In this document: piece by piece, positions 10,912-48,280 of the stretch
Layout: each line of letters begins with the position of its first letter
How positions within the stretch are numbered: position 1 is the stretch's first letter
Source: Cristatella mucedo
Taxonomy: Eukaryota > Bryozoa > Phylactolaemata > Cristatellidae
DNA length: 64,000 nt
Assembly (NCBI GenBank): GCA_009760855.2
Contig: WPIO01000020.1
Coordinates: 5,775,501 to 5,839,500, forward strand
Direction of reading: 5' to 3'
The notes under the pieces: generated by a model
Database searches by the model: none
What the model saw: the letters and a program-made list of their open reading frames with translations, nothing else
Told to the model about the DNA's origin: nothing
Position numbers and translations under genes: made by a program

Positions 10912-11055
10912 GCCGAGCTGGCTTGGTCCAGCAGTTAAGGTGCTCCCCCCCCCGACCAAGGTCTGGCTGAGTTCGTGGGCTCGAGCCCCAGGGCATTAGT
11001 GAAGCGCCTGAATAGTGAATAAGTTCTCTTAGGGCAATGTACAAATAAACTATAA

Positions 11056-11110
<55 letters not shown>
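10912..11110 (+). mobile_element. SINE-A, tRNA-derived, with (CA)n(TA)n tail
   Basis: The head reads GCCGAGCTGGCTTGGTCCAG, with a pol III A-box-like TGGTCCAGCAG and a B-box-like GGGCTCGAGCCCC at about 10,978-10,990. The body then reads GAAGCGCCTGAATAGTGAAT followed by AAGTTCTCTTAGGG, which matches the 3' end of the L2-like LINE. The 3' end runs into (CA)n at about 11,057 and (TA)n to 11,110. Copies on the minus strand lie at 48,125-48,275, 34,230-34,345 and 40,190-40,325. Confidence 0.75.
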
Positions 11111-11111
<1 letters not shown>

Positions 11112-11700
11112 CATGGTTGGAGGCTACTTGCACAGGGTCAGCAGACAAATATGGCTAGTGCCAGCGTATATAGAGTCAGCATGTTCAGCACGCAAAAAAT
11201 GAATCACGGAACTCTTTCAATGTTGTGATTAGTAGATAAGTTTTAGCTTCTTTCGCAATGTCTACAATTCACAGAATGTCGTGACACCAGCTGGAACTGA
11301 TTTCAAGGCTTTTGAACCACATACACTAATGGTGCTGAGTTAAAGGGATTTGAGATTGTACAAGGTTTACTTTACTGATTCGCTTGCTTGACTGGTAGCC
11401 ATTGCAGGTCAGTACGAAGTGATCGAAGTGGCAACTGCGACGCTCACGACATATGCGCCTAGCTTCAATAGTTCACTAATGTGAGTGCCTGAGCGCATAG
11501 CCCTAGTTGACCAGTATGCAGCGACTTACAGAAATTGTTATGCGACAAATACGCCGACCCATTGAGAAATAGTATCAGTTTGCGAGCCTACATTTAAGCA
11601 ATGTAATGCAGCTGAAAGTAGGCAGGCTTACCTGACAGCTTATGCGGTCAACTAATGAAAGGTTATTTTGTAACAGGACACCTAGATCTCGTGCACAAAA
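11111..11700 (-). mobile_element. L2-like LINE fragment, heavily decayed
   Basis: In reverse orientation this matches the RT C-terminal region. Landmarks are GCTTGACTGGTAGCCATTGC (about 11,389), GGCAACTGCGACGCTCACGA (about 11,431) and ACACCTAGATCTCG (about 11,679), all shared with 42,950-43,270. No frame is open. The 3' tail lies next to the (TA)n end of SINE-A. Confidence 0.75.
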
Positions 11701-12394
11701 CCTAGTTATTTATATAATCCGGGACTACAATTAAGATGGCTCGCTCACTCAGTTACAATAATGTACTCAAACAAAGACATAACTGAGAGTAAGAACAGCA
11801 CGCTGTATCCAATAGCAGCGATTACTCAATCAACAACACGAACTAAAATGTAAGCAAACGGGTCCGATCATTCTCATTATTTGCCACTCTCTAGCAATAG
11901 TTCAACCGTTGGAAATTTCACTGTAGAGCCTGAGGAAAACATAAGCAGGTGCATTTTCAGTGGGCGACCCGGAGCTTACTCCATTACAAAGTGAATCCAG
12001 ACATTAGTCTAGGCTACATCTGCAGGTGGGTATGAAGGCATATTACGTCTCGGGACTAGAATTCCACCCAGCAATATCATATATCTACATTCCGAGTTGG
12101 ACCGACTAGTTATTACATATAGTGTAAAATCACGCTTAAGTACTGTGCTTTTGCACCCGGGCTAGATCTTAAGTTTTCGATCCGGCACCGAGGAGTCTTT
12201 TATTGCCAGCACCTTATAGACTGAGAGTCGGTAGGCTTTCTCTTACAATATATAAGGTAGGCTGCCAATGCAATGATTTATATCACTGTAACATTTACCA
12301 TGGACATTTTAGGATCTTGGTAGGTACGAATGGGGACGAAGCTCGTTTCGTCTGCAATAGATTTCCTTTGATAGGGTGACCACAGGAGGGTGAT
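11701..12394. other. No recognised feature
   Basis: Unique sequence with only short frames on either strand. No repeat family or coding signal was recognised. Confidence 0.4.
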
Positions 12395-12400
<6 letters not shown>

Positions 12401-12468
<68 letters not shown>

Positions 12469-12480
12469 AGAGAGAGATAG
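12401..12480. repeat. (GA)n microsatellite
   Basis: Nearly pure GA dinucleotide repeat, with imperfect GAAA and GATA units at the right edge. The ORFs that read Ser-Leu or Arg-Glu through it are artefacts of the repeat. Confidence 0.95.
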
Positions 12481-14580: not shown

Positions 14581-14898
14581 AGTCGGTCTTCACCGCCGGC
14601 GTCGAGCTTTCACTTATTCCCATCGGCGCAACGGTCGCTACTCATAATCACCACACTTATTGCAGCTATTACCTGTTGCTAGCACCAATTTTAAATGCTG
14701 GAATAAAACTCTGTGTTAAACTCGTTCTTTTCAAAAGCTAGTCAGTCTTCGCCACCGGCTTCGAGTGTTCACCTATTGCTATTGGCGCATTGGTCACTAC
14801 TCATAATAGCAGGATTTATCAGAACTGTTACCTGTTACTAGCGCCAAATGCTGATACTAGAGTAAACCTCTGCGTTAAACTCGTTTATTTCAAAAGCA
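14581..14898 (+). repeat. Two-unit tandem duplication, period about 159 bp
   Basis: The unit at 14,581-14,739 (starts AGTCGGTCTTCACCGCCGGC, ends TCTTTTCAAAAGCT) is followed directly by a diverged copy at 14,740-14,898 (starts AGTCAGTCTTCGCCACCGGC). Shared internal motifs are CATCGGCGCA/TATTGGCGCA, TTACCTGTT and GTTAAACTCGTT. An 82-codon frame at 14,790-15,038 spans the second unit and has no recognised similarity. Confidence 0.8.
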
Positions 14899-20700: not shown

Positions 20701-20715
20701 TAACTGAGAAAAAAT

Positions 20716-20874: not shown

Positions 20875-20929
20875 AGCATCAATTGTTGTTCAATATACAT
20901 GTTTTAGTGACATCTGAACCTGGAAGGCA

Positions 20930-21890
20930 ACACATTTTCTTAAGCTAAACGATGATAAAACTAGCTTATTAGTTATGGGCAAACCCAGTACGATTTATAA
21001 ATTGGAACGGCTGACGTTCAAAATTGGCTCTGCCAGAAAATCACCTTTTGAATCAGCTCTAAATCTAGGCTTCATGTTCCAAAGTGATCTCTCGTCAGAC
21101 GACCGAATCGGCTCTACAATAAAGTCTGCCTACTTTCAGATACATAGCATTTCTAAATTTTAGGCTTATTTAGATAAGGATGCCACATCTAAGTTACTCC
21201 TTGCATTTGTGAAAAACTGTCTTGACTTCTGTAACTCACTGCTTGCTGGCCTACCAGCATGTGCAATCTGGTAATCACAGCTGGTGCAAAACTCCCCAGC
21301 TAGGTTTGTCTGTCATCAGCGTTGCAGTTTCCATTTTTTCGCTGACCTGTACTGGCTCCCAGCCAAGCAGCGGATCAACTTTAAGGTTTTGTTGCTCACT
21401 TTTAGGTCACTTTATTCTTAGGCTCCCACCTATCTCTCAGATCTACTCCCCCACCATGCCAAGCATCGTACTAACTGCTTTTCGGAATCCAGTCGTTTCT
21501 CAATGTCTCATACAAAAACCAAATCCTGTAGACATTTCCCATTTAGTTCATACGCTCTCAAAGCCCGGAACTCACTCCCGACTTTAGTCACAACATCACC
21601 TGACTCGACCACTTTTGTAAAGAACTTAAACCTTATTCTAGACAGCATTTAGTGGGTCCTTGTTATTCGTCCTTCATGTGCTTATGTGTGCTGACACTCT
21701 GCATGCTGCCACTAACCGCACTTGGATGCTGACCCTGTGCATTTTAACCTTAACCATGTTATTCACGTTGTTTATCAACCACGATATTACTCATTATTCA
21801 ACCGTGTTTCCTTTTGCAGCAAATGTAAAGCGTCTAGAAAGAGATTTATGTCTATAAGGGTGCTTTATAAAGTGCATTATTATTAATATT
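20930..21890 (+). mobile_element. L2-like LINE, 5'-truncated, decayed
   Basis: Starts in the RT just after the YADD region (AAACGATGATAAAACTAGC; residues MGKPSTIYKLERLTFKIGSA) and runs to the 3' UTR and a hairpin remnant (AAAGCGTCTAGAAAGAGATT). It ends in ATTATTATTAATATT at about 21,882. The thumb is split over frames 20,975-21,163 and 21,222-21,587 by indels and stops. Confidence 0.88.
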
Positions 21891-22054
21891 TTGTTATTCT
21901 TGTGGAATATTTATGAGTAGGCTTCATGTGAATTAGTTTACTGCGGAGAATATATGTCCATCTTTTTACCTTATGCAATATCCGTCGTGATGCATATATT
22001 GCACGCTCATTTATCTTTAATTTTACAGCAGAGTCTATTTTTTACACGTTTTTT

Positions 22055-24194: not shown

Positions 24195-25085
24195 TTGTAG
24201 ATTTAATGTAATGAAATGTAATGTATCTCCATCTGTAACTCCAAAAATTCATAAAGACCATGTGGGTGTTACACAGGAGAGCTTTGGATAGCACACTCAC
24301 AGCCTAAGTGGTTTTCGTTGCCCATTTGGTAGCCAACAGACTTCGTCTCCCGCAACGAAGAGAAAGTGGGAAGCATAGCAGAGTTAGGAGAGCAGTTGAG
24401 GTAATGAGTAGCATAGAAGTAGCAGCTCAGGACCGCTGAAAAAGATGTGCCATAGTCGGCAGTTGGAGAGTAGTTGTCGTTGCGTAAGAATTGTGGAAGC
24501 GAGTTACACAGTCTAGGACCTGCAGAGCTAAAGCTTCTGTCGCCAACTTTCTTTAAGCTGAGGAATGGGACAGCTCATTTATTGTCCACACATGATCTCA
24601 GGGCGCGAACAGGCAGAAACTGATGTAGCAGTTCAGCTAAGTACGAAGGAGCCAAGCCGTGGCGGGCCTTGTGGGTCAGCCTAAGAACTTTGCTCTGTAT
24701 CCTTCGCTCAACCGGCAGCCATCCTAGGTCTTTCAGCAAAGGAGACACCTGCTCAAACCGCTGAGACTTGAAGACCAGCCTTGCAGCCATATTCATAGTC
24801 TGCTGTAGTGGCATGATAGCTTTCTTTGGCAGCCCAGCCAAAATGGAAATACAATAATCAAGCCGAGACACAACTAAAGAGCTAGTTAAATTTTTAGCAA
24901 GCCACTGTGGAAGACAGCTCCTAATCTTGGATATGGATCGGATGTGATGGCTAGCTGTAGATGCAGTCCTTTGAATGAAGCTTTTGAAATTGAGGCAGCC
25001 GTTGAACACGACACCTAGATTACGAGCACGTGGTAAAGGTCGCACAATAGCATCACCTATTAGAACAGCAAAGCCTTTTATCTTT
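24195..25085 (-). mobile_element. Second LINE family (CR1/L2-like), copy 1
   Basis: Minus-strand LINE 3' half. The 3' end has ATGTAATG-type repeats (about 24,205-24,230), unlike the (ATT)n of the main family. The frame 25,045-24,575 encodes the RT C-terminus (ARNLGVVFNGCLNFKSFI, VVSRLDYCISILAGLP, AARLVFKSQRFEQVSPLLKD, LGWLPVERRIQSKVLRL). Related copies are at 30,150-31,838 and 36,520-38,280. It stops abruptly at about 25,085, where the plus-strand L2-like LINE begins. Confidence 0.85.
24575..25045 (-). pseudogene. Reverse transcriptase C-terminal fragment, second LINE family
   Basis: 156 open codons covering the thumb and C-terminal domain of a CR1/L2-type RT. The catalytic core (motif A and YADD) is not in this copy because the element is cut at about 25,085. 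It is the least damaged of the three family-2 C-termini in the window. It has no role for the host. Confidence is high that it is LINE-derived and lower for the clade name. Confidence 0.85.
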
Positions 25086-31939: not shown

Positions 31940-32490
31940 ACTCTTCTGGGTAAAGTCGTATAGACATGTCTCAAACCAACCTCAACATTGCATGAGGCTG
32001 TGCCTTTACTTCCTATGCGCACAAAGCCTGGAACTCACATCCGGCTGACGTCACGACATCTCCGACTTGTAACGTATGCTAAAAACTCACTTTTTTCTCA
32101 CGGTACTTACTCGGTGTTTGTGAGCATCCCTACGTTTGTATATATGGACAAAAACTGCCCATGTTACTACTAATCTATATCAAGCATTCTCCATGACGAC
32201 GCACTAGGTAAGGCGGTTGCTTTTCACGACCTCAGTCCAGATGTCGCGGGTTCTAATCCTGCGGTGGGCGAACATTATCGCCACAGCAAGCTGTGGTGAC
32301 AGCCTTAAACGCTCTTCTGTCGCTATACAAAACACGCTGATAAAACAGCTAGTATTTAATTTAATTTAATTCCGACACCATGTATGTTACTACTACCATA
32401 CGGTAATGCTTCCTTAGCAGCATGCGTAAAGTACCCGGAAAGATACTAAGTTCTCTAAGTTTGCTCAATGAATGTATTACCATCATTTTT
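31940..32490 (+). mobile_element. L2-like LINE 3' fragment, interrupted by SINE-B
   Basis: Left part: ACAAAGCCTGGAACTCACAT (about 32,020) and GACGTCACGACATCTCCGAC, equal to the end of the RT ORF. It continues to the 3' UTR (ATATCAAGCATTCT). Right part from about 32,375: TGTTACTACTACCATA, then GCAGCATGCGTAAAGTACCC and AAGATACTAAGTTCTCTAAG, the decayed hairpin. SINE-B (32,195-32,372) splits the two parts. Confidence 0.7.
32195..32372 (+). mobile_element. SINE-B, copy 3, nested in an L2-like LINE
   Basis: Head GACGCACTAGGTAAGGCGG, then GTTGCTTTTCACGACCTCAG, and a B-box-like GGGTTCTAATCCTG at about 32,248-32,261. The body carries GTGGTGACAGCC and CTCTTCTGTCGC. It ends in ATTTAATTTAATTTAATT, the clearest example of the SINE-B tail repeat. 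Confidence 0.85.
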
Positions 32491-32635
32491 ATGATTGATA
32501 TTATGGTTGTCTTGCCCTAGGATCTTAAGGGTGGAGTGCGAAATTAGCGACGGAGTGCTTAGGCAGTTGCACCTCACTCTGACTACCGCGTCGAGTCAGT
32601 TCGACATGAAGCCACACCTGCTTAGCTTGCTCTTT

Positions 32636-32766
32636 ATAATAATAATAATATTGCACTTGATAAAGCGCCCTCAGAGAACTTAATCTCTTTCTAGGCGCTT
32701 TACATTTGCTGCAAAGTGATACGCAATAGAATAGTAAGTAAAATCATGCTTGAAAAACAAACAAAA
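32636..32766 (-). mobile_element. L2-like LINE, minimal 3'-end insertion (about 130 bp)
   Basis: Reverse-orientation 3' terminus only: (AAT)n, then the hairpin AAAGCGCC (32,662-32,669) and GGCGCTTT (32,694-32,701), then about 65 bp of 3' UTR ending near AAAACAAACAAAATGG. The hairpin arms are perfect, so this is a recent and extremely truncated insertion. Confidence 0.9.
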
Positions 32767-32849
32767 TGGCTCTTTCTTTGAGGTTTATATTTCTGCGTGA
32801 CTAACACGGTTGCTAAGCCATAGAATCTACTGAGAAATGAGAGTACTAC

Positions 32850-33200: not shown

Positions 33201-33339
33201 TTAGCACCTCGGTTTTAAACTACTAAGATTACCAATCATAATTGAAATAAATAGAGACCTGATCATGTATTGCGCTTGCAGAACCTAAATAAATATGCTA
33301 AGTATTGCTTAATTAAGCATTCATTAGCGGTATCGTCAA

Positions 33340-33720
33340 CAAGGTGCCACGTGACTTAATTGTAGTTTCGTATACGACCTTCGAGACCTCTGGTACGAGC
33401 ACAGACTGTCGCGTCTCGTGTGAAGCCTGTTTCAGGCACCCGAATACCCATGTGCTTAAAACAGCTCCTGGATCCAAAGTAGAAAAAACATTCGAGCAGC
33501 ACAAACGAGACCGTGAAATTGACGCCGACACGATCCATTCGACGAGTGCCACAATATCATGTTCACGCGACACTCAAGTTCAGTTGGCGGCAGGACGCGT
33601 ACAACGGGCTGAGACACCAAAAGACCTTGGAGACTCAATAGGCACTCGAAATATGCCTAACAATAGCAACACAGTGCTTTATTTCCAGCAAGCAGTGCTA
33701 AAGGCACTCCGATGCTAGAG
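33340..33720. other. Short region open on both strands, unassigned
   Basis: A 124-codon plus frame (33,344-33,718) overlaps 86- and 60-codon minus frames. The composition is more balanced than in the AT-rich flanks. No domain is recognised on either strand. It may belong with the GC-rich block at 32,850-33,200, for example as parts of one unknown element, but no termini or motifs support that. Confidence 0.25.
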
Positions 33721-33745
33721 AACACGCACCAAGTATATATGTACC

Positions 33746-33747
33746 AC

Positions 33748-33779
<32 letters not shown>

Positions 33780-33780
33780 G

Positions 33781-33860
<80 letters not shown>
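33746..33860. repeat. (TA)n-rich microsatellite with TATG interruptions
   Basis: TA repeat broken by regular TATATATG units. Poly Tyr-Ile frames on both strands are artefacts. Confidence 0.95.
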
Positions 33861-33862
<2 letters not shown>

Positions 33863-34117
33863 GGAAGAAAGACACTGAGGCACTTACTTTCATGCCGCAT
33901 GCGAGATTGCCCTCTCTGGCTGGCAAGACGACAAGAGTCCGCTAGCCATAACAATCATATTGCAAACTACCTGGAACTGAGCCAGGCTGTTGGCAGAATG
34001 AGCTGACGCCGAAGTGAATGCTGCCACCAACACACCTCTCACACGGCGAGTTTAATGTGGCCAGGAATGGCCCTCTGCAGCGTAGCACCAGCAGAGCAGA
34101 CAGAGAGATCAGTGCGG

Positions 34118-34119
<2 letters not shown>

Positions 34120-34216
<97 letters not shown>

Positions 34217-34222
34217 CGTATG
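34120..34222. repeat. (TG)n microsatellite at a SINE-A tail
   Basis: TATATATA, then about 90 bp of TG, then GCGCGCGC. Immediately to the right lies a minus-strand SINE-A, so the repeat occupies the SINE's 3' tail position. Confidence 0.9.
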
Positions 34223-34229
34223 CATACTC

Positions 34230-34345
34230 AAACTCTGTTCAGGCACGTCACGTAAGCTAGGAGTCTCGAGCTAAAAGACCTCTGTTATCAAATACATTCA
34301 CATTGACCTTGGTCGAGGCAAGCATATTAACCGCTAGATCAAACT
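34230..34345 (-). mobile_element. SINE-A, copy in duplication 2 (left)
   Basis: Read on the minus strand: an A-box-like TTTGATCTAGCGGTTAA, then GCTTGCCTCGACCAAGGTCA and a B-box remnant around AGCTCGAGACTCC. It corresponds to the SINE at 40,190-40,325 and, more distantly, 48,125-48,275. The L2-like tail is largely replaced by the TG repeat in this copy. Confidence 0.6.
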
Positions 34346-35436
34346 AGCCAGGCAAAAATGTCTGTATGTTAAGGATGATACTGAAGATGATTGCAGCAAA
34401 TTATGCTGCCAAGCTTACAGCAGCTCACTTTACCGTATAGTTCGTCGACCCAGCAGAGCTTTTCTTCGAGAGGGCAACTGCGGTCGGGACTCCTTTAAAT
34501 ATAGGGCCCGAGCGTAGTTCACGCAATAACCTTGCTGCCTGCATAATCGCACATTGCGATTGCCATAGGCGTTGGCTTGACTCGGCTGTTTCATCGGTGG
34601 CTCTCAGGACAAAACCAGCGGTCAACCTCATAGTTCATTATCACTGACATTCAAATTGGTAATGTGTTAAACAGAGACATAGAAATCGGCTTGCTGCTCA
34701 GCAGCTTTGCTCCTAGTGCGTACAAAAAGCCTGAGAGGGTTCAACACAGCTTCCAGATTGCAAGGCTGCATTGCTAGCTGACTGTTTTTGAGCCCTTGAT
34801 ATGTATGCATCATGATGTCTAGGCACCTCACTTTTGAGCTAAGACAAGTAGCAATAAAAAATTCACATGACATCATGCGGGTGAGAATCAAACGAGATTG
34901 CTTTCCTTTCAACCAATTTTATTTACGACACCTATCCTATTTCATTATAATAATGATTCTCTGATGACATCTTTTGAAGATTTAAAAGGATTGTGTTGGG
35001 TTACTGAAAAAGGTCAAAATACGAAAAACTTGCGGTTCTGGTAGGCAGGATGCTTAGCAACAAGACGCTAGATTTTTCAGCTATTTCTTATCATTATAAG
35101 ATGCAAGAGAGAGAGAGAGAGAGTGGAACACGTTAGGGTTTGAGACGAGCATGTGTCTTAGGCAACCGGCGTACTTGTGGTATCGTTGCTGCGAGTTGCT
35201 GACCAGATAGGAGGCACCAAACAATGACTTGCTTCGATATGTGCTTTCATTTAGCCCTCTCTATAGTTTTTCCGAAATTCTTGAGTCAGGACACAAGTTT
35301 TTACCATTAAAATAATTATAATAAAACAACTGCAGCTTTATTTCGCAATATTTCAGCAAGCTGCAAGCAAAGCAATAACCAAAGTGTAGCTACGAGCAAG
35401 ATATTGTTAATAAACAAGCATGCAATTGCACCCACT
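34230..35436 (+). repeat. Segmental duplication 2, left copy
   Basis: Collinear with 40,198-41,461. Anchors are AGACCTCTGTTAT (about 34,277 / 40,257), GAGCTTTTCTTC (about 34,456 / 40,424), CTTGCGGTTCTGGTAGGC against CTTGCGGTTCTAGTCGGC (about 35,029 / 40,988), GAGTTGCTGACCAGATAGGA (about 35,193 / 41,220) and AAGCATGCAAT (about 35,417 / 41,443). The internal GA repeat is about 20 bp here (35,106) and about 70 bp in the partner. No gene is recognised; minus frames at 34,425-34,631 and 34,667-34,912 are not clearly conserved. Confidence 0.88.
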
Positions 35437-35539
35437 TGTAATAACGCTTGCACAAGCTATGAAAATAAACCAACCAGGAACCCAGCTTTTTCTTGGTTAG
35501 TAAGACTTGCGGAATTTAAATTGTGTGCATGCCACCCCC

Positions 35540-35665
35540 GGCCATGTTATTATTGTTGTTTATTCAGCGTGCTACCACTAACCATTCCATTGTGCTTCGT
35601 TAGCAGCAAATATAAAGTGCCTATAAAGAGATTTATTTCTCTGAGGGTGCTATATCAAACGAATG
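35540..35665 (+). mobile_element. L2-like LINE 3' end, decayed
   Basis: Contains CAGCAAATATAAAGTGCC, then TATAAAGAGATTTATTTCTCTGAGGG, i.e. the terminal hairpin region with mutations, preceded by 3' UTR-like CCATGTTATTATTGTTGTTTA. No clear (ATT)n remains. Confidence 0.7.
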
Positions 35666-36515
35666 ATTACTATTTTATTGGTATCGTGAATCAGGAGCTG
35701 GTAAGTGTTAAAATACATTAAAAAGATAACAGCCTTGGGTAGCTATATGAACGCATATTAAGCTATGGCTGTTAGGAGCTGGTACAATTTTTACTTATCA
35801 CTGCCATCAAATCATTGTATTTTTGATGGCACAAATTAATTACATGCTTTGCTTACTTGATAAATGAGGGCACAGTCACCAAAGGACTCGAACGTAGATA
35901 GACGTGCAACCTATTTACCTGATTCGAAAGACCGAGCGGTTCGAAGGAAGGCCTGAGAGGAAATTCAGTCTGCTGGATGAAGTAAGAGATGGCGGAACCT
36001 AAAGATGACTGAGAGAAATTTAAAGTAAGCATTCTGCTTGACAGGCAGTCAGTGATGAGAATAGATCAGCAAGAACTCGGCGCAGGAGCGGAGTTCAGAG
36101 GAGGCAAGTCTGGTTGCCGAATTCTAAACGATCGGTAAATGACTTATCGCTCGCCCAGAGAGCTCAGCATATAGCTCGGTACAGCTACCGATTTTCAGAT
36201 TGACACGTACCGTAGGTGGCCACTTACAGCCATGTATATATAAGCTAATAAAATAAGTTTGTACAAATGAATCATATCCCGTGAGGAATGGTTGGGCAAG
36301 CTTCCTTTTTATGCATTTTTTGTACGGTAATACTTTAGCATGATCTGTAAAAAATAATCGTGCCAGTTACTGCGCTCCGGCTGAAAGCATGGTCTCAAAA
36401 GGATCAGAGATTGGTTAGAGGCACGGCTAAGTGGCAGGAGTCGTTTGGGGGAAATGGGCAACCTCAGAGCAATTTTTTCAGTTAAATAAGCCTGGAAAAA
36501 GAGAAAATGTAGCTA
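35666..36515. other. No recognised feature
   Basis: Unique sequence, no coding signal. Confidence 0.4.
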
Positions 36516-36519: not shown

Positions 36520-38280
36520 ATATCTCGAAAAGGAGCTTATGTATAACGGTCTGTAACTTCACAAAGCCATAAAGACGATTTGGGTGTTACTCAGAAGCGT
36601 TGTGTAGCCTGCTCACAGACTAAGCGGCTGTCAAAACTCATTTTGGTAGCCAACTGAATTCGTCGCACGCAACAAAGTGAAAGTGGAAAGCGTAGCCGAG
36701 TCAGGATAGCAGTTGAGGTAGTGAGTAGCAAGGAGGTAGCAGCTCAGGACTGCTGAAGAGGATGAGCCATAGTCGGCAGCACGAGAGTAGCTGCCGTTGT
36801 GTTTAAATTGTGGAAGCGAGTTCCACAGTCTATGACCTGCCGAGCTAAAGCGTCTGTCGCCAAAAGTCTTTAAGCAGAGGAATGTAACAGCTAATTTACT
36901 GTCCACACAGGACCTGAGGGTGCGAACATGCTGAAACTGGTGCAGCAGTTCAGCTGGGTATGAAGGAGCCAAGCCGTGGCGAGTCTGGTGGGTCAGCGTG
37001 AGAACTTTGCTCTGTATCTGTTGATCAACCGGCAGCCATCTTAGCTCTTTTAGCAAAGGAGACACGTGCTCAAACATGGGACTTGAAGACTTGCCTTGCA
37101 GCCATATTCATAATCAACTGCAGTTGACCTAGTTGGTAGATCAGCCAATAGGAATATACAATAATCAAGCCTAGCCAGAACTAAGGAGCTAGTTAAATTG
37201 TTTGCAAGCCACTGTGGAAGACAGCTTCTAATCTTAGATAGGGATTGGATGTGATGGCTAGCTGTAGAAGCATTCTTCTTAATGAAGCTTTTGAATTTTA
37301 GGCAGCTATCGAAAACGACGCCTAAATTTTAAGCACGTAGTAATGGTCGCACAACAGCATCACCTATTAGATGAGCAAACCCTTTTAATCCAGCCACACG
37401 CTTAGTGTTTCCTGAGTAGCAGTTTAGTTTTATCTTCATTTAGTTTCAAGAAGTTTTCCGACATGCAAGATTCAATGTCGGCAAGGCAAGCATTCAGTTC
37501 ATCAGTTGCTGCAGCTGACTCAGAAGGTTTGAATGGCAAATACAACTGAGTATCGTCGGCATTAAAGCGACATCCTAATCTATTGGCCTTAATCAATTTT
37601 CCCAGAGTTTGGGTATAAATGGAGAACAGCAAAGAACGGAGGACGGATCTTTGAGGGATTCCAAAGGTGACCGGTCTCGTGTGTGAGACCTGACCACCAC
37701 ACGACACGGGTTGAACAGATCAGAAAAGTACGCTTTGAACCACGCCAGTGACTCGTCTGCCATACCAATCGTTGTTCTCAATCAAGTAGAACATTGTGAT
37801 AATCAGTGGCGTCGAAGGCAGCCGATAGACCTAGCAGAGCTAGGACAGTGACCTTCCCTTCATCATTGAAACGTAGAATGTCACTATTAACTCGGAGGAG
37901 AGCAGTTTCAGTGAAGTGCTGCCTTTAAAGTACCTGAAATTTCATTATTTTCAATACATTCAGCAAGCTGCTTAACGACAATTTTTCAATAATCATGCAC
38001 AAGAAAGGAAGAAGTGAAACTGGGAGATAGGTTTCAGGGACTTCTGTATCCAATCCTACCTTTTCCAGTATAGGTCTAATGATTGCCGATTTGAAGAACT
38101 CGGGCACGACCTCTTTTACCAAAGAAGCATTACAAATCTCGACTATGGCAAGGCTACGTTGATACGTAAGTTTCGGTAATCAGAAATGCAACTAGTTTCT
38201 CCTGGAACAACTGATGGCGGATTAGTGACTCCTTGGTTTTCAGCGAGCGGAAATTTAGAAGGGGGAATTTAAAAGGCTGG
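36520..38280 (-). mobile_element. Second LINE family, copy 3 (most complete)
   Basis: Minus-strand RT-bearing LINE. Reading 38,122 to 36,631 in pieces gives FKSAIIRPILEKVGLD and PVSLLPFLCMIIEKL (RT fingers), a frame with HTRPVTFGIPQRSVL (PQG-type motif) and FNADDTQLYLPF (the YADD box, here NADD), then DEDKTKLL-like sequence and the C-terminal EHVSPLLKELRWLPVDQ and APSYPAELLHQF. At least three frameshifts or stops break it. No endonuclease is visible. The 3' end lies near 36,530. Confidence 0.88.
36631..38122 (-). pseudogene. Reverse transcriptase of LINE family 2, broken
   Basis: Coding remnant split over four frames (38,122-37,925; 37,781-37,593; 37,707-37,402; 37,077-36,631). The second of the two overlapping middle frames carries IPQRSVLRSLLF and the active-site box FNADDTQLYLPF. 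Substitution of Tyr by Asn in the first box position would be expected to hurt activity. The order of motifs is normal for a CR1/L2 RT. Confidence 0.85.
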
Positions 38281-38600: not shown

Positions 38601-39905
38601 TGTTTTGTGTAGCATTTCCAAAGACAGCTCATAAATAATCACAGCGAAGATAGCAGCGGCTGATTTCAAATGGCACCGTCACATCCACAACTACTAGATT
38701 AAGGCCGTTGTCAATGACCAGGTCCGGCTTGAGAGCCAGACCACCAGCAAGCGTGAGGGTGCGGCCTGCTGATAAGTAGTTAAGCTTGGTGGCCGGAAGA
38801 GCTCCGATTAGGTGGCTCAGAACCAGGTTGTGTCTGGCCGTATTTGCATGCAACGTCGGCCATCAGTGGCTCTGCACATGGCAAGCCGTCTCAGACACTG
38901 TGCGGCATAGACGGAAGCTGGTAGACTTCCCGGCCGACTCCTGGCAGGAGCCACTGTCAGCAAGTCCGGGTGAGCTCAGTGCACGAACCGCCAATCCCGG
39001 AACAACAGGCCAAGACCCGTGGTCAACAAGTGACTATGGGTGGCGAATCTGTCCGTGGCCAGGCAGCGGCTGACCCTACCCTGTGCAGGCTGGGCCACCA
39101 AAACACGGATTCCCACGAGCCTGGTGAATTCTAGCAGCTTCGTGATGACTACTCGTGGCACGACCCAGTGCTCAATGCCGTCAGGGTCGGTGGACACAGC
39201 CAGCACTTCAGGGCCTGTCAGCGAGAGGCAACAAGAGAGCCGCTTGAGGCACTTTCGCATGTCCGGCCATAGGGCGATCTGGCTAACTCTGTTGCCAGGG
39301 CCGAATGCTGCTGTGCTTAGGTATCGCGAACGCTCCTCATCAGAAGAAGGCGTGCCATCCAGGCTGGCTACTGCCCAGTCAAGTCTGTAACGGGAGACTT
39401 GACGGATGCACGTGTCGGATGAGCACAGCAAGCGACAGCCTTTCACAGCTCGTAGGATGGAGGCGTTCGTCCAGAATCGGATCAAGCCAAGCCCACCCTC
39501 AGAGCGCGGCACAAACGGGAAATGCACGGATGCAAATTTTGGCAGACCACATGCGAAGCGACAAAGCTCCATCAGAGCCTTTTCGACTGGTTTCAGAGCG
39601 GCCTTAAGCACAAGCAGCTCCCTACAAAGGTAGTCGAGCCGTGACAGGAGGAAATTCCGCCAGGCGTCAAACTATTGCCAAGGAGCGAGAAGGCTGGCCT
39701 GAAGCGGGTTAATGTCTCTTGCAAGGGTAGAGCAGGCCTGCTCTATTTCAGCCCTAAGCTGCCCGAGACCCTGTGGGGCTCCAAGGTAAGCCACTGACTC
39801 GGTCTCCGTCTGCTCGAGAATCTGCCCGTCATGTAGGATGATTGAGGTGGGCACGGCTTTCGCACCCTTTCAGGCGACGATAAAGCACTTCGCCAGCCGG
39901 AACTG
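38600..39905 (-). pseudogene. R2/NeSL-type LINE fragment: RT thumb, zinc knuckle and restriction-like endonuclease
   Basis: Minus strand. 39,854-39,672 encodes AKCFIV-like sequence upstream and ETESVAYLGAPQGLGQL, the end of the RT palm. It continues in the same frame after one stop into 39,611-38,976 with KPVEKALMELCRFACGLP and VPRSEGGLGL (thumb). After a frameshift comes a knuckle CRTVSETACHVQSH, then TARHNLVLSHL, then LKPDLVIDNG and VVVDVTVPFE, the order and motifs of the REL endonuclease (PD..D..). The first knuckle Cys reads Phe and the last is a stop. The RT catalytic core is missing; the element ends at the TA repeat at 39,910. Confidence 0.8.
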
Positions 39906-39909
39906 CATG

Positions 39910-39979
<70 letters not shown>

Positions 39980-40129
39980 CATATATAGCATATATAGCAT
40001 ATATAGCATATATAGCATATATATAGCATATATATATAGCATATATATAGCATATATATATAGCATATATATAGCATATATATATAGCATATATATAGCA
40101 TATATATAGCATGTATATATATTGCATGC

Positions 40130-40184
<55 letters not shown>

Positions 40185-40185
40185 A
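39910..40185. repeat. (TA)n, (TATAGCA)n-type and (GA)n compound microsatellite
   Basis: About 68 bp of TA, then a higher-order array in which TAGCA alternates with TATA blocks (unit about 10 bp, then about 12-14 bp), then TA again and (GA)n from 40,150. Tyr-Ile and Ala-Ile-Tyr frames are artefacts. A SINE-A on the minus strand follows directly. Confidence 0.95.
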
Positions 40186-40325
40186 TTTGTTCAGCAACCT
40201 AAGAGAGCTTCATCTCTATTCTGGCACGTCATATAAGCCAGGGGTCTCGAGCCGAAGACCTCTGTTATTGAATAGATTCACATTGACCTAGGGTGAGGCA
40301 AGCACATTAATTGCTGAATCAAACC
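40186..40325 (-). mobile_element. SINE-A, copy in duplication 2 (right)
   Basis: Reverse orientation. The tail reads TTCAGCAACCTAAGAGAGCT and TCATCTCTATTCTGG (the complement of the L2-like hairpin region). A B-box remnant at GGTCTCGAGCCG (about 40,242) and head sequence near TTGCTGAATCAAACC follow. The microsatellite at 39,910-40,185 sits where the SINE tail should be. Confidence 0.7.
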
Positions 40326-41076
40326 GTCGCGGTAAAAATGTCAGGATGCTATGGCTGATACTGAAGTCGACTGCGATAAACTCGTTTGCTCACACTTAGC
40401 TCTATAACTCTTTGACCCAGTAGAGCTTTTCTTCATGAAGACAACTGCGATACGAACCCCACCAATGTAGGGCCCGATCATAAGTCGTGCAATAACCTGA
40501 CTGCCTACCTAATCACACGTTGCCATTGCCGTAAGCGTCGGCTTGACGAGGTTTTTCATCGGTGGTTCTCAGGTCAAAACCAGCAGCCAACTATGTAGTT
40601 ATCACTGACTTTTCAAATAGTTCCTGTGTGAAACAGAGACGTATAGATCGGCTTGCTCAGTAGCTTCGCTCCTAATGCTTATTAAAAGCCTTATAGGGTT
40701 CAAATCAGCTTTCAGATTGCAATGCTGCATTGTTAGCTGAAGGGTTTTTGAAACTTTGAGATGAATCTTGATGTGTGGACACATCATTTTTAGCTAAGAC
40801 CCACAGAAAAATAACAATTTTACCGTGCTAGACATGACACCTGGCTGGCAAGAATCAAATGAGATTTTGTTTCAAACCAGCCAATTCCATTAACGGTATA
40901 TATTACATTAGTAATCCCCTTATGAGGTCTCAAGAAGATTTAAACGGACTGAGTTGGCTGACTAAAAAAGATCGTACTACGATAAACTTGCGGTTCTAGT
41001 CGGCAAGACGCTTAGCAAAAAGCCAGGACACACGACAGTTATTCAGTTATTTCGGAGCATTACGCGATGCAGGAGG

Positions 41077-41158
<82 letters not shown>

Positions 41159-41461
41159 CGTTACGGCTTGAGACGAAGCGATATATCAGGCACCCGGCGT
41201 ACCTTCGGTTTCGTTGCTTTGAGTTGCTGACCAGATAGGATGCGCAAAATTATCACTTCTGCAAAGTGTGCTTTCCCTTGCCCCTCCTTCAAGTGTTCCC
41301 GCGATACTTGACTCAGGACAGTAATATTTGTCATCCAAATATTAATAAAAAGTCATATGAAGCTTTAATTCGCACCTTTTCAGGTTGCTGCAAGTAAAGC
41401 AATAACGAAACGTTGGTTATGAGCAAGGTATCTTAGTTAACCAAGCATGCAATATCACCCA
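40198..41461 (+). repeat. Segmental duplication 2, right copy
   Basis: Direct repeat of 34,230-35,436, about 6 kb away. It includes the GA microsatellite at 41,085-41,155. The 61-codon minus frame at 40,602-40,787 partly matches the frame at 34,667-34,912 (QHCNLKADLNPIRLL against QPCNLEAVLNPLRLF), but neither is recognisable. Confidence 0.88.
41085..41155. repeat. (GA)n microsatellite
   Basis: GA repeat of about 70 bp inside duplication 2; the homologous run at 35,106 is only about 20 bp. Confidence 0.95.
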
Positions 41462-41940: not shown

Positions 41941-41944
41941 GCTT

Positions 41945-42223
41945 CCCTGTCTATCTGTCAGTCTGTATGCCGGTCTAGGTCTTGGTCTCTATCTCTCTAT
42001 CACTCTGCCTCTCTGTCTGTCTGTCTCTCCGTCTCTGTCTCACCGTATCTGTCTCTATCTCTTAATCTCTTTATCTCTCTGTATCTCTGTCTCTCTGTCT
42101 CTCTGTCTCTATCTCTCTGTCTCTCTGTCTCTCTGTCTCCCTGTCTCTCTGTCTCTCTGTCTCTCTGTCTCTCTGTCTCTCTGTCTCTCTGTCTCTCTGT
42201 CTCTCTGTCTCTCTGTCTCTCTG

Positions 42224-42278
<55 letters not shown>

Positions 42279-42303
42279 GTCTCTCTGTCTCTCTGTCTCT
42301 CTG

Positions 42304-42348
<45 letters not shown>

Positions 42349-42412
42349 GTCTCTCTGTCTCTCTGTCTCTCTGTCTCTCTGTCTCTCTGTCTCTCTATCT
42401 CTCTGTCTCTGT
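41945..42412. repeat. (CTGTCTCT)n array, left part
   Basis: Long array of an 8-bp unit CTGTCTCT with pure CT patches and mutated units at the left edge. A full-length LINE adjoins its right end, and the same unit resumes on the far side at 45,971, so the two arrays look like one array split by the insertion. Confidence 0.95.
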
Positions 42413-42413
42413 G

Positions 42414-45400
42414 CAATATTAATAAAAATAATAATTCACTTAATAAAGCGCCCTCAGAGAACTTAATCTCTCATTAGGCGCATTACATTTGTTGTAAAGT
42501 GAAATGCAATTGAATGGTAAGTAAAATCATACTTGAAAAACCAACGAAATGAATAATATGGTTAGGGGTAACATGCACAGGGTCAGCATGCAAATGTGGT
42601 TAGTGGCAGCATGCACAGTGTCTGAACGCAGAAGCACATCAAGGACGAATCACAGGGACCCACTAAATGCTGTCCTAAATAGGTGTGTTTTTAGGTTCCT
42701 TTTAAATGTGGTCAGGTCAGGGGATGTTCTGACGCTGGTCGGGAGGGAGTTCCAGGCTTTGGGAGCATATGAACTAAATGCACGGTCTCCAAAGAATTTA
42801 AGGTTTGTATGAGGTATTTCTAGACTGTTGAATTCCGAAAAGCGGGTGGTACGATGCTTGCCTGATGGGGTAGTATATCTGACAGATAGGCTGGAGCCGT
42901 AGAATGAAGGGACCTAAAAGTGAGCGACAAAACCTTGAAGTCAATACGTTGCTTGACTGGTAGCCACTGCAGGTCGGCGAGAAGTCGAGTAATGTGGCAA
43001 CTGCGACGTTCACGGCAGACAAGTCTAGCTGTAGAGTTTTGCACCAGCTGCAATCGCCTGATCGCACATGCTGGTAGGCCAGTAAGCAGTGAGTTGCAGA
43101 AGTCGAGACGGGATGTCACGAATGAATGGACCAACTTAGATGTGTTATCTTTATCTAAACAAGCCCGAGTTTTAGCAATGTTATGAAGCTGAAAATAGGT
43201 GGATTCGACTGTGGAGCTGATATGGTGTTCTAACGAGAGGTCGCTTTGGAATATGACACCTAGATTTCGAGCTGATTCAACTGGATATATGCTGGCAGAG
43301 CCAATTTGGAGCGTTAGCCTTTCCAATTTCGGAATCACACTGGGTTTGCCCATAACTAGTAAGTTTGTTTTATCATCGTTAAGTTTTAGAAACTTTGCTG
43401 CCATCCATGTGGGATGTCATCAATGCATGCAGCTAGTGAGTTTAGAGAGTTTGAGGTGCTTGAAGGCTGGGAGGGATCAAAGCAAAGGTACAACTGGCAA
43501 TCACATCAGCAAGAGGCAGAGTATAATTCATGAAAAAAACCGGACCTAGCACTGAGCCCTGAGGTACTCCTTATTTCAGAGGTATTTCAGATGATCTTTG
43601 TCCATTCACGTCAATACTCTGGAGTCTCCCACTGAGATAGGACCTGAACCACTGCAGAGCAGTGCCAGTGATGCCCAGGCGAGATGAGAGGCGCCCTAGA
43701 AGAACTTTGTGATCGATGGTATCAAAAGCTGCCAAAAGATCAAGCAAAACAAGCAGAGACACTCTACCAATGTCAGCATTCCTAAGTAGGTCGTTGTATA
43801 CCCGAAGCAATGCTGGCTGTGTGGAGTGATTAGCTCTAAAGCCAGACTGGAACTTACTAGCAAGGTGTGAGGTTTCGATATACGAGTTCAGCTGGTCCAC
43901 CACGACCCGTTCGAGTGTCTTTGATAGGAATGGTAGAAGGGAAACTGGGCGGCAGTTGCTCAAGTTCTCTTGGTCAAGTGTAGCTTTCTTGAGAAGTGGC
44001 CTGACTACAGCTTTTTTGAAAGGTGCAGGGACCTGACCTGAGGCTAATGACATATTAATTATGTTATTTATGCATGGCAGCAGCAGATCAATAGGGTCCT
44101 GAGGACTTGTTGTCTTCTTTGATTGAGATACGAACTTTAGGACTAGATCACCTGCTTAAATGCAGACATTGAGGTGCAGCCAGGAACCGAGTAACAGCGT
44201 TCTAGTGGGGAGGTTGTCATCGCAGGGATAGATTCCCTGATCTTGTCTATCTTCTGCACAAAGAATCGAGAGAAGTGATCGGCTAGATCATCACAAGGAT
44301 CATCAGGTAAGGAGCTAACCTGGGAACGTTTGAGGAGATGGTTTATTGTCGACATTAGCATTTTTGGATTGTGCATCTGTGATTCAACAATGTTTTTATA
44401 AAAACTAGACTTGGCCTTTGCTAGGATCGATTGGTACGACCTACAGTAGTCTTCATATGCCTGTCGATGGACAGTTAGTTCGGATCTTTTGTATGCTTTT
44501 TCAAGCTGTCGTTTAGTAGACTTGGCTAGTTTAATGTCTGTGGTAAACCATAGGCCGTCTGGGCGGCGGCGCACAGTCCGCTTTGTCAGAGGGGCAAACT
44601 CGTCCAGCGTGTCAGCTAGTGTCGTGTTGAAGCTATCTACCAATGATGACAGATCCGAGGGGGGATTGAGCAGCAGAGGTGAAGCAGATATTCTCGCACG
44701 GACAGCATCGATGTCAAGGGTCTTGAGGTTTCGCGATTAACAGGTTATTTTAGAGAATGATGTGGGCGCACACTGTAGATTGAATGAGATCTGCATGTGG
44801 TCAGATAAGCAGGTTTTGGTAATAATTGGTGATGACAAAGTGCAGTTGTATGAGAAAATCGGGTCGAGTGTGTGACCCTTGATGTGGGTAGGGCCCTGAC
44901 ATGAGCCACAAGAGACAGTGAGTCAGTCAATGCACGAAATTCGGTGCTTAAGGCGCCAGATAAGTTATCAAAGTGAACGTTGAAGACACCCATTGCGAGG
45001 AAGGATCGATTTCTTGCACACAGAATCGAAATGAGATCCGAGAAATCTGAGATAAAGGAGGATTTGGTACCTGGTGGGCGATAGACTACTGCCACTATCG
45101 GTAGCTTGTTTTCGGGTGAGACCAAGACAATTGATTCAAAAGACTCCTTCGAGGGTACCACAAATGGCTTGAAGTTGAATTTCGAGCGCACGACAATAGC
45201 AACTCCACCTCCAGTTTTGATTGATCTAGGGGTGTGAAAGAACGAGAAACCAGATGGAGTTGCGTCTTTAATTGTCGGACAGCTTATCGATTTCAGCCAA
45301 GTTTCAGTTAGGGCGAGCAGGTCGATACCATTTTCAGAAACAAGGTCGCTTATTACTAGAGGTTTATTGCACATTGAGAGAGGATTCCAAAGGCAAGCGT

Positions 45401-45968
45401 TAGGTCTGGCCGATGGGGCTACAACAGGCTTTATGACCAATATGTTTGAGGAATTTACAGTGACGCATGTGGGGGAGCGTTCTGAGCGGTTCGAGACAAT
45501 GCTAGGAATACCGAACGAGCTGGTACTCAGCTTGCAGGTTCCGCCCAACGAGCAGCCTCTGAGCTGGCGGTTCCGGCCACCGCGGCGGCTACGGGTTGCT
45601 TTTCTTTTGTTAATGCATAGTTCATGAATCTTAGCAATAACATTAATATCTAGGAATGCATTTGATATGCGATGACGAAGCGATAGCAGCTGCTGACGAT
45701 CATAACTGACAAGCAGGTTACTAGCCGCCGGCAAAGCTAAGGCAGCCGCCGGCGTGGGAGACCCAGCAGCCCGAAGCGATAAGCGTTTAGATGTCCATAG
45801 GCACGTAATTTCTTACGCGCTACGGTCAAATAACAAACAGAATAACTTTAAACAGGTCTTAGCTGTATCGTTTCCGCATACGATGTTCGCAAGAACTTTG
45901 ATTTTCGGAAGAATTCTGCAACGAACAAGAACGCACGTTAGAGCGCTCTATGTCAGGAGGCGAGAATT
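42414..45968 (-). mobile_element. L2-like LINE, full-length but inactive
   Basis: About 3.55 kb on the minus strand. The 3' end is (AAT)n at 42,418-42,436, with the hairpin (right arm mutated to GGCGCATTA). The 5' end at about 45,968 (ATTCTCGCC on the minus strand) matches the 5' end of the copy at 56,344 (ATTCTCGCA). Both ends abut a CTGTCTCT array. Order: 5' UTR/N-terminal region, AP endonuclease (45,734-44,745), linker (44,643-44,143), RT (44,053-43,571 and 43,404-42,820). Confidence 0.92.
42820..45734 (-). pseudogene. L2-like LINE ORF: AP endonuclease and reverse transcriptase, broken
   Basis: The N-terminal part (MPAASNLLVSYDRQQ, then a basic RSRRGGRNRQ stretch) precedes an AP-endonuclease with LLALTETWL, VAVVYRPPGT and AMGVFNVHFD. 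The usual Asp of the GDFN motif reads Val here. The frame breaks at about 44,745, 44,143 and 43,571. Around 43,496 a 40-bp deletion, relative to 26,593-26,640, removes the RT YADD active site (GATTGC joined to CAGTTG on the minus strand). This copy lacks both catalytic centres but is the best guide to the domain order of the whole element. Confidence 0.9.
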
Positions 45969-45970
45969 GA

Positions 45971-46245
45971 CTGTCTCTGTCTCTCTGTCTCTCTGTCTCT
46001 CTGTCTCTCTGTCTCTCTGTCTCTCTGTCTCTCTGTCTCTCTGTCTCTCTGTCTCTCTGTCTCTCTGTCTCTCTGTCTCTCTGTCTCTCTGTCTCTCTGT
46101 CTCTCTGTCTCTCTGTCTCTCTGTCTCTCTGTCTCTCTGTCTCTCTGTCTCTCCGTTTCTCTGTCTCTCTGTCTCTCTGTCTCTCTGTCTCTCTGTCTGT
46201 CTCTCTGTCTGTCTCTCTGTCTGTCTCTCTGTCTCTCTGTCTGGC
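45971..46245. repeat. (CTGTCTCT)n array, right part
   Basis: Same unit and same strand phase as the array at 41,945-42,412; it adjoins the 5' end of the full-length LINE. Long plus frames reading Ser-Leu-Cys and minus frames reading Arg-Asp-Arg-Glu-Thr are artefacts. Confidence 0.95.
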
Positions 46246-46329
46246 TGGCTGTCTGCCTGCCTGCCTGCCTGCCCGCCTGCCCGCCTGCCCGCCCGCCCGC
46301 CCGCCCGCCCGCCCGCCCGCCCGCCCGCC
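46190..46329. repeat. Graded tetranucleotide tract CTGT to CTGC to CCGC
   Basis: Units change in order from CTGTCTCT to GTCTGTCT, GGCTGGCT, (CTGC)n, then CCGCCTGC and pure (CCGC)n up to 46,329. On the minus strand the end is a (GCGG)n run capable of stacking. Confidence 0.9.
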
Positions 46330-48047
46330 TTTTACAAGAGCTACCCCCAAGTTGAGAGCATGCTGCTACCCCCAAGCCTCTCACTAGCAAGCACTAGCTT
46401 TACGTCTTAACCATCGCATCTGCGACTTTCTTATTCAAGCTACGCGATTGCTGCATGCTATGGTCGATATTTGTGTTCATTCTGCTGTGCCTTTGATTAC
46501 GGCTGAATTATTAAAAATAATTACATTGAACATTTTCATATTTGCATTTTCATTAAACTCCGTAAATAAATTAATTTTAGCTGATTTAGCAGCTTCATTT
46601 GTATCGCGGTTGAAGACCTTAACGGCCATCGCTACTGCTTCCAGTTGGCAATAAAGGATCACTGCACAATTCGAACTCGACCTTGGTCATCAAAAGCGAG
46701 CACTTTGCCTCTGGCAGAACGGTAGCTTGAAATCCAATGCATATACTTAGATTGATGATAGTAAATCACGTTGGCTGGTTTTTGTTTACCTTCAAAACAT
46801 CCTCTTCATTAGTTCAGTCAGTACAGTCAATAATTTTATTTTGCAAAAATAAAGTCATTATCGTAAAAGCTGTTACTGGTTTTGTGCAACGTATCTAGAA
46901 GAATTTTGATTAGCTCATTCCTTAGTTCTTCTCCCTCGTCAGTTGGTCTATTTTTTTGCTTCAAGCATTATGCTATCCCATAAATGTCAAGTTTTTTTAA
47001 TCCTGAAAAATATGAGATACAGAATTTGTTGTTGATATGTTGTGTAGGGGAGAAGAAACCTGAGAGAGTTGATACGTAGGGGGAGAAGAAACCTGCAGAG
47101 GATTCTACTGTTGGTTTGAGCACCCTCCCTAGATACATGACTCTACGGGGCTGTGCAAGCCAGCTCCCTCCAGTCACTCCTTAGTAGCTACTTAGATAGC
47201 CCGTACGAGAGGTTCGATTCCTGTGACCCAATCCAGGCACTGCCGGCTTCAGCTGCCCACCACTGCCCAGCTCTTTCGCTGCCTGTTGCAGCCGTTTTCT
47301 CGAAGGCCAAAGCGCCCGAGGAACGAGGTCGTCGACCTGTACACATAACCCATAGCACCGACCTCCACTCCAAACAGTACTCACCGCTATCCCTCACGCT
47401 CCTGCACTACTCGGATAATTCGTCTTTGCGGCTTTCAATGATATTCTTTCAATAAGCTGCCAAAAAGTTTTTATATGGAAAGCGGTTTGGTGCTAGTTAT
47501 TAGCACCATACCAAAAGATAGCTATCTTTAAGTTTTCTAGTCGTTTTCTGGCGCCACTTCTTAGCCCAGCGCCCTAGGCGATTGCCTAGTTCGCCTAGTG
47601 AAAGTGCCTGCCCTCGTGTTAGTTTTAAGCAATTCTAGGCAGCCGTGTTCTAGGCAGCAGTGTTCTACTATCATTAATCTCGGACGGCAGTCAAGCTCAC
47701 TTCTTTTTATTTTCTGCCGGCAGTTTGGTTAAAATACTCATCCATATGAAGATAACATGTTTGCATTGAGAAGGCTTTGCCAGTTGAAAAAAATACCAGA
47801 TCATAGCCCTTAACCAACGTGAATTTGATGGAAACTTGCTTTTATTCATCATAAAACTAAAGAACTATAGTTTGGCGTGCCTTTTAATAGCAAGTTTTTC
47901 AACAAATAAGAATTCCTAGAGGAATTGTAACTATTTCGATAAAAGACTCTCATTAAAAGTTGTAACTTCCGCAATTTATGTTGTCTTGTCTAGCTTCACT
48001 CAATTCAGCCGCATGCTAAAATTGATGTGACTAAAATGCATTGATTT

Positions 48048-48048
<1 letters not shown>
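46330..48048. other. No recognised gene
   Basis: A 16-bp direct repeat GGGGAGAAGAAACCTG occurs at about 47,047 and 47,080. A GC-richer patch at 47,200-47,400 is open on both strands (100 codons plus; 69 and 67 codons minus) without a recognisable domain. It begins beside a tRNA B-box-like GGTTCGATTCC at about 47,211, so it might be an unknown SINE. No second copy is in the window. Confidence 0.35.

Positions 48049-48050
<2 letters not shown>

Positions 48051-48130
<80 letters not shown>
48051..48130. repeat. (CA)n(TA)n microsatellite at a SINE-A tail
   Basis: About 52 bp of CA, then about 26 bp of TA, joined directly to the 3' end of the minus-strand SINE-A. It mirrors the (CA)n(TA)n tail at 11,057-11,110. 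Confidence 0.95.
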
Positions 48131-48136
<6 letters not shown>

Positions 48137-48280
48137 GTGCATAGCAACCCAAGAGAACTAAATCTCTTTTCAGGCGCTTCACATATGCCTCAGGGCTCGA
48201 GCCCATGACCTCAGCCAGACCTTAGTCCGGGCGAGCACTTTAACCACTGGACCTACCCAGCTCGGCATCAATTATCTGCT
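48125..48280 (-). mobile_element. SINE-A, best-preserved minus-strand copy
   Basis: On the minus strand: GCCGAGCTGGGTAGGTCCAG, then TGGTTAAAGTGCTCGCCC (A-box-like AGGTCCAGTGG), and the B-box-like GGGCTCGAGCCC at about 48,205-48,194. Then come GTGAAGCGCCTGAAAAGAG and ATTTAGTTCTCTTGGG, the L2-like 3' end, and finally TTGCTATGCACATAAATTAT and the microsatellite. Confidence 0.85.

Follow-up and report, generated by a model that had tools for sequence, protein, structure and literature searches.

SINE-A and LINE copies in the window

The stretch of Cristatella mucedo (Bryozoa; Phylactolaemata) DNA analyzed in this work, positions 5,775,501 to 5,839,500 of contig WPIO01000020.1 (assembly GCA_009760855.2; 64,000 nucleotides (nt), hereafter “the window”), harbors copies of a short interspersed element, SINE-A, and of a long interspersed element (LINE), which we take to be L2-like on the basis of an initial annotation of this DNA and of the 3' hairpin structure of the element. 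The features are listed in Table 1, and single copies are named in the text by one position. At the level of families, the two elements appear to be a fair candidate for a LINE-SINE pair, as suggested by the 3' tail that they share.

The initial annotation had named four SINE-A copies. Two of them, at 10,909 and 48,125, stand alone: they have a common 5' start, no homology upstream of it, and unrelated flanks (n = 2), and they share 79% identity across 140 nt. The other two (34,230 and 40,186), which are 84% identical across 98 nt and represent a variant, A2, with 17 extra nt in the head, belong instead to a stretch of about 1.2 kb that occurs twice in the window (34,233-35,434 matches 40,214-41,461 in two pieces, with 72-74% identity). 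Since homology continues beside both, they are not independent, so that the idea of four independent copies was rejected; the pair is most simply read as one insertion that was duplicated along with its neighbourhood. It is also possible that A2 and its neighbourhood represent one composite mobile unit, because past the arrays that end the two copies the comparison of 33,300-34,110 with 38,900-39,720 gave a 19-nt match only.

Four weaker relatives were likewise rejected as independent insertions, as they form two pairs within duplicated segments (8,490/56,179 and 5,578/53,581). The first pair, most simply interpreted as the same insertion duplicated, had also been considered as a LINE 3' end because of a short LINE-like reading, an idea that was discarded because its homology belongs to the duplication 3,234-8,649/51,129-56,338. 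This direct duplication of about 5 kb is preserved in four pieces with 75-79% identity and holds long open reading frames (ORFs) at 3,663-5,093 and 51,580-52,158, without a Pfam match; the LINE at 5,955-6,698 is missing from its second copy.

Table 1. Position of the SINE-A and LINE features in the window (bits refer to profile matches)
Feature	Position	Strand	Remarks
SINE-A copy 1 (10,909)	10,909-11,055	+	tRNA-like head ~10,909-10,995; L2-like tail ~10,993-11,055
Box A, copy 1	10,924-10,934	+	1 mismatch to TRGYNNAGNGG
Box B, copy 1	10,978-10,988	+	GGCTCGAGCCC, 1 mismatch to GGTTCGANNCC; 54 nt after box A
(AC)n(AT)n array ending copy 1	11,056-11,109	+	
SINE-A copy 2 (48,125)	48,131-48,268	-	box A 48,244-48,254; box B 48,193-48,203
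(TA)n(TG)n array ending copy 2	48,051-48,130	-	
SINE-A relative A2 (40,186)	40,180-40,329	-	17 more nt in head; within duplicated segment
(CT)n(AT)n array ending 40,186	40,130-40,181	-	
A2 paralog (34,230)	34,200-34,349	-	tail degraded
(CA)n array ending 34,230	34,129-34,208	-	
Probable older SINE-A relative	8,490-8,649	+	21.2 bits (controls at most 8.7)
Paralog of 8,490 relative	56,179-56,338	+	11.7 bits
Possible older SINE-A relative	5,578-5,665	-	15.1 bits
Paralog of 5,578 relative	53,581-53,647	-	18.3 bits
Old L2-like LINE copy, 5' side of the interruption by copy 1	11,113-11,694	-	blastn pieces 11,113-11,329 and 11,384-11,694
3' end of the same old LINE copy, other side of copy 1	10,792-10,904	-	LINE hidden Markov model, 40.2 bits (controls at most 13.1)
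LINE 3' end (3,172)	3,074-3,241	+	with hairpin and (ATT)n
5'-truncated LINE 3' fragment	32,634-32,768	-	32,636-32,768 100% identical to 3,104-3,236
LINE 3' end (6,008)	5,955-6,124	-	empty site in paralogous segment near 53,938
LINE 3' end (42,451)	42,415-42,581	-	
LINE 3' end (58,006)	57,911-58,077	+	
LINE 3' end (60,875)	60,787-60,945	+	
LINE 3' end (21,828)	21,734-21,896	+	
LINE 3' end (27,851)	27,763-27,925	+	older tail behind young body
LINE 3' end (35,615)	35,525-35,690	+	
LINE 3' end (353)	259-425	+	
LINE 3' end (32,400)	32,360-32,500	+	
Longest LINE ORF, 782 aa	25,051-27,399	+	reverse transcriptase PF00078, E 1e-31
LINE endonuclease ORF, another copy	44,745-45,812	-	PF03372, E 5.2e-7

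Homology between the tails of SINE-A and the LINE

Eleven LINE 3' ends were aligned, and a twelfth (10,792-10,904, minus strand) came from a profile search. At 3,172 (+) and 32,682 (-), the LINE block AAGCGCCTAGAAAGAGATT..AAGTTCTCTGAGGG is found without any change, and other LINE 3' ends carry it in altered form. As for the SINE copies, AAGCGCCT and AGTTCTCT occur exactly in 10,909 and 48,125, AAAGAGATT at 48,125 only, and none of the three is found in exact form in 40,186 and 34,230. When majority consensus tails were aligned, the check that had been proposed with the initial annotation, the similarity was kept: SINE-A (with both A2 paralogs included in its consensus) and the LINE are identical at 44 of 53 columns, three of the remaining ones being gaps.

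Each SINE tail was then compared with three LINE tails from the alignment of 11 (3,172, 35,615, and 58,006, in this order below), using 2000 dinucleotide shuffles per SINE tail. The number of shuffles scoring as high was 0, 0, and 0 for 48,125 (scores 49, 46, and 45), 0, 44, and 0 for 10,909 (42, 21, and 29), 0, 0, and 151 for 40,186 (29, 29, and 17), and 51, 126, and 17 for 34,230 (16, 14, and 18). In the 40,767 bases of the window remaining once repeats were masked, the best background scores were 23, 25, 24, and 23 versus best LINE scores of 42, 49, 29, and 18 for 10,909, 48,125, 40,186, and 34,230, respectively. On the basis of the shuffle counts and of this background, the similarity is clear in two copies, modest in 40,186, and not convincing in 34,230; the notion that all four carry the hairpin block of the LINE is confirmed in part. 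A profile of the four SINE tails gave a concordant picture, its next nine best matches all being LINE 3' ends (20.3 to 10.0 bits), two of which, 3,168 and 32,704, are identical in the matched stretch; a tenth LINE end scored 7.8 bits and 2 of the 12 were not among the matches listed, while the controls reached no more than 9.6 bits (20 Markov windows) and 4.7 bits (the reversed window).

One might argue that the similarity is due to chance or to the convergence of two hairpins, given that 34,230 matches all three LINE tails weakly (17 to 126 of 2000 shuffles score as high) and that the comparison of 40,186 with 58,006 falls within the shuffles. This explanation appears highly improbable to us, since no shuffle reached the score of 48,125 with any of the three LINE tails, or that of 10,909 with two of the three, since each of these copies aligns to the LINE over 37-38 columns with 32 identities, and since the controls of the profile search top out at 9.6 versus 20.3 bits. 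Judging from these alignments, the SINE and LINE tails are homologous beyond chance, in the same orientation and register. One exact pattern of the pair had no match in the viral_contigs and genome_contigs collections, in neither of which an animal genome is expected, and sequence strings had none in the text of papers, where such sequences are rarely printed.

Insertion of SINE-A into an old LINE copy

That SINE-A moved as a unit follows from the position of the 10,909 copy, which interrupts an old LINE copy whose pieces at 11,113-11,694 show 66-67% identity to the 42,400-45,900 copy. The joined flanks of this SINE align to all the other LINE copies tried (4/4), with no gap at the point where they meet and a single-base one a few nt past it; the flanks were cut at 10,908 and 11,107, which retains the last 3 nt of the terminal array, a choice favouring the fit.

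The LINE families

Endonuclease (PF03372) and reverse transcriptase (PF00078) domains are both present in the LINE, in different copies; the 782-aa ORF is the longest among the 25 ORFs of at least 150 aa listed, and the matches of the LINE protein in the PDB include LINE-1 ORF2p (the best one, E 3.9e-14) and R2 proteins. One LINE (25,088-27,925) is a mosaic, in which an older tail stands behind a young body that is 99-100% identical to ~1,731-2,740; some 205 nt of its coding end occur in two copies, which share 75% identity.

A second, related LINE family (24,325-25,102, 30,271-31,029, and 36,642-37,387 (-)) shares ~34-48% protein identity, in pieces, with the first one. It was considered as the donor of the SINE-A tail and rejected: none of the three 3' regions inspected carries the block, and two of them have ACATT-like runs. 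Outside these families, a 231-aa ORF without a Pfam match (38,976-39,671, minus strand) resembles by impression the C-terminal region of a retrotransposon, and a 206-aa ORF (62,593-63,213), with a match to Pfam zf-C2H2_12 below the cut-off, gives the impression of being transposase-like. The window has a GC content of 43% and an observed/expected CpG ratio of 0.73, values that give no more than a hint of an invertebrate host.

A model for the mobilization of SINE-A

The heads of the two stand-alone copies, 10,909 and 48,125, contain a box A/box B pair with one mismatch in each box and spacings of 54 and 51 nt, respectively. A conserved central domain marks the CORE-, V-, Deu-, Nin-, and Ceph-SINE superfamilies; in SINE-A, the alignment places the head directly next to the tail, and no central body is visible.

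On the whole, we consider it probable that SINE-A, with its tRNA-like head and L2-type tail, is an ordinary SINE mobilized through the LINE hairpin with the help of older members of the LINE family. According to this model, SINE-A would be a short non-autonomous retroposon, whose tRNA-like head, with a putative internal polymerase III promoter, would allow transcription by this polymerase, and whose tail, joined directly to the head, would derive from that of an L2-like LINE. The RNA of SINE-A would then end in a nested hairpin of the LINE type, which the LINE protein might recognize and bind, reverse-transcribing the SINE RNA at a nicked target. The helper would most likely have been an older member of the family rather than the young copies present in the window, since the SINE copies are ~21% apart, as compared with 95-100% identity, over parts of their length, between some LINE copies. 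As to the initial proposal that the LINE mobilizes SINE-A, the sharing of the tail beyond chance speaks in its favour, and it is supported in part; this very LINE may have moved this very SINE.

A number of observations weigh against this model. The difference in divergence just mentioned also suggests that the periods of activity of SINE and LINE may differ, and two of the tail comparisons reported above (10,909 with 35,615 and 40,186 with 58,006) fall within the shuffles. Moreover, the initial annotation had envisaged an autonomous/non-autonomous pair within one window, and the domains of the autonomous partner are there, but none of the nine ORFs scanned holds both the endonuclease and the reverse transcriptase Pfam domains. 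Concerning the head, no box A/B pair (at most two mismatches each) was found in 40,186, 34,230, 8,490, and 56,179, so that two of the six copies tested have the pair. With less strict limits (box A with at most one mismatch, box B with at most two, 30-75 nt apart), six pairs came up in the window as a whole, two of them in SINE-A and four elsewhere. The Rfam tRNA model had no match, with E up to 10, in 10,880-11,060 and 48,125-48,300 (the former yielded two sub-threshold matches to unrelated families), and ARAGORN detected no tRNA anywhere in the window. Because the tRNA model matches neither stand-alone copy, the head is termed “tRNA-like” here, with no named tRNA.

The target-site duplications, too, are either short or ambiguous. 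At 10,909, a duplication of either 0 or 6 nt (AGCATG) can be read by eye, the latter requiring a loss of ~4 nt relative to the other LINE copies, and at 48,125 no duplication is readable. In the case of the LINE, reading by eye gave 7 nt for the fragment 32,634-32,768 (AAAGAGC on both sides), 3 to 5 nt for the insertion ~1,731-3,241 as compared with the empty paralog near 51,130, and ~0 nt for 5,955-6,698 as compared with the empty paralog near 53,938. These LINE duplications fit an L2-type machinery and are no proof that the SINE shares it.

As far as the hairpin is concerned, each of the six LINE tails folded, out of 12, is more stable than its shuffles are on average (z -5.0, -4.1, -4.5, -2.2, -2.2, and -3.2), and so is the SINE tail of 48,125, which folds at -16 kcal/mol (z -2.8; 4/200 shuffles equally good); these results favour the model. 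The tails of 10,909 (z -0.5), 40,186 (z 0.4), and 34,230 (z 1.7) fold no better than shuffles, so that the SINE hairpin exceeds the shuffles in one of four copies. The majority loop, TTAAGT, is common to the LINE and SINE consensuses. Across 14 tails (11 LINE and 3 SINE, leaving out 34,230, which is degraded, and 32,682, which does not differ from 3,172), 81.4% of the cells are paired (87% in the inner and 79% in the outer stem), a value reached by 70/500 shuffles, and the covariation score was reached by 179/500; both lie within the shuffles, and covariation was rejected as a proof of the hairpin. Slid controls gave 32-59% of paired cells versus 81.4%, a low pairing that is to be expected because the structure was taken from one row.

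Terminal repeats

A terminal repeat common to a LINE and to the SINE that borrows its tail is usual, even though not always required. The ATT-like terminal run of the LINE is not common to SINE-A, whose four copies end in dinucleotide arrays, and this counts among the points unfavourable to the model. A loose pattern found an ATT-like run after 12/12 LINE 3' ends and fired too on three of the four SINE tails, at their TA arrays, for which reason the terminal difference was judged by eye. Dinucleotide runs of at least six units within ~90 nt follow none of the 12 LINE ends versus all four SINE copies (3/3 once the duplicated pair is counted once). In the adjoining stretches inspected, the relatives at 8,490, 56,179, 5,578, and 53,581 have no array.

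It might be supposed that SINE-A inserts beside pre-existing dinucleotide arrays, which would then represent the target and not the tail; 4 of the 17 merged arrays of at least eight units in the window do lie at SINE ends. We consider this quite unlikely, as the target of the 10,909 copy is known from other LINE copies and no array exists there. It follows that at this site, a single case, the array was not in the target and therefore either came with the insertion or grew afterwards.

A different explanation accepts that the tail once came from an L2-like LINE, but holds that SINE-A was later taken over by an ATT-independent helper, the hairpin being a relic. The different terminal repeat in 4/4 SINE copies, together with the three SINE tails out of four that no longer fold better than shuffles, would fit such a history. 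Nevertheless, this explanation seems to us unlikely: LINE and SINE share the majority loop, the decay of old copies accounts equally well for the poor stems, the second LINE family lacks the block too, and the recognition of zebrafish L2 rests, in passages of PMC4176376, on the loop plus an intact stem.

Starting again from the model of mobilization through the LINE hairpin, one can speculate that SINE-A kept this hairpin and dropped the terminal repeat, that is, that it is a hairpin-recognized and repeat-independent SINE, which seeds a dinucleotide microsatellite with each insertion. This idea is rather doubtful. All four SINE-A/A2 copies, corresponding to about three independent insertions, end in an array, versus 0.43% of oriented window points lying within 15 nt of one; on the other side, the weaker relatives show no array in the stretches inspected, and 10,909 is the sole site whose target is known to have lacked one.

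Relationship with known LINE-SINE pairs

In L2-clade LINEs, the 3' stem-loop is the recognized basis of LINE-SINE partnerships, according to passages of PMC4176376 and PMC3747384; in zebrafish L2 LINEs, the former source describes it as needed for retrotransposition and bound by the LINE protein. SINEs with a tRNA promoter that end in a LINE tail include, in the part of PMC3747384 considered here, UnaSINE1 and UnaSINE2 of the eel (with UnaL2, a member of the L2 clade), the HAmo SINE of carp (with HAmoL2), and HpaI of salmonids (with RSg-1). SINE-A resembles all of them in joining a tRNA-like head, with a putative promoter, to a LINE tail. However, when compared by description, UnaSINE1/2 and HpaI are listed in that source as CORE-SINEs, whereas SINE-A joins head to tail directly, and UnaL2 ends in TGTAA repeats, whereas the LINE described here ends in ATT runs, which SINE-A lacks. 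The mammalian MIR/L2 pair, with a tRNA promoter and an L2 tail, is similar as well, although MIR, again by description, is listed there as a CORE-SINE, unlike SINE-A (PMC3747384).

The zebrafish elements ZfL2-1 and ZfL2-2 resemble the LINE of this window in having a 3' stem-loop in the tail (passages of PMC4176376). They differ in that their function was tested, whereas the present LINE is known from its sequence alone; the target duplications of ZfL2-1, ~5 bp in the portion of PMC4245944 considered, may be set against the 7, 3-5, and ~0 nt read by eye at the three LINE insertions. A close association with microsatellites, as in SINE-A, is described for a tRNA-derived SINE of carnivores, which is, however, mammalian (PMC1634856).

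LINE-SINE pairs are well known, and SINE-A with its LINE would be a further ordinary case, the dinucleotide ending being the one unusual feature of SINE-A. A natural pair of this kind shows which positions of the tail are kept in both partners and thus are possibly read by the LINE protein; in this case, this holds for the majority loop and the inner stem but not for the terminal repeat. Should the arrays turn out to belong to the insertion, SINE-A would also represent a source of microsatellites in its host.

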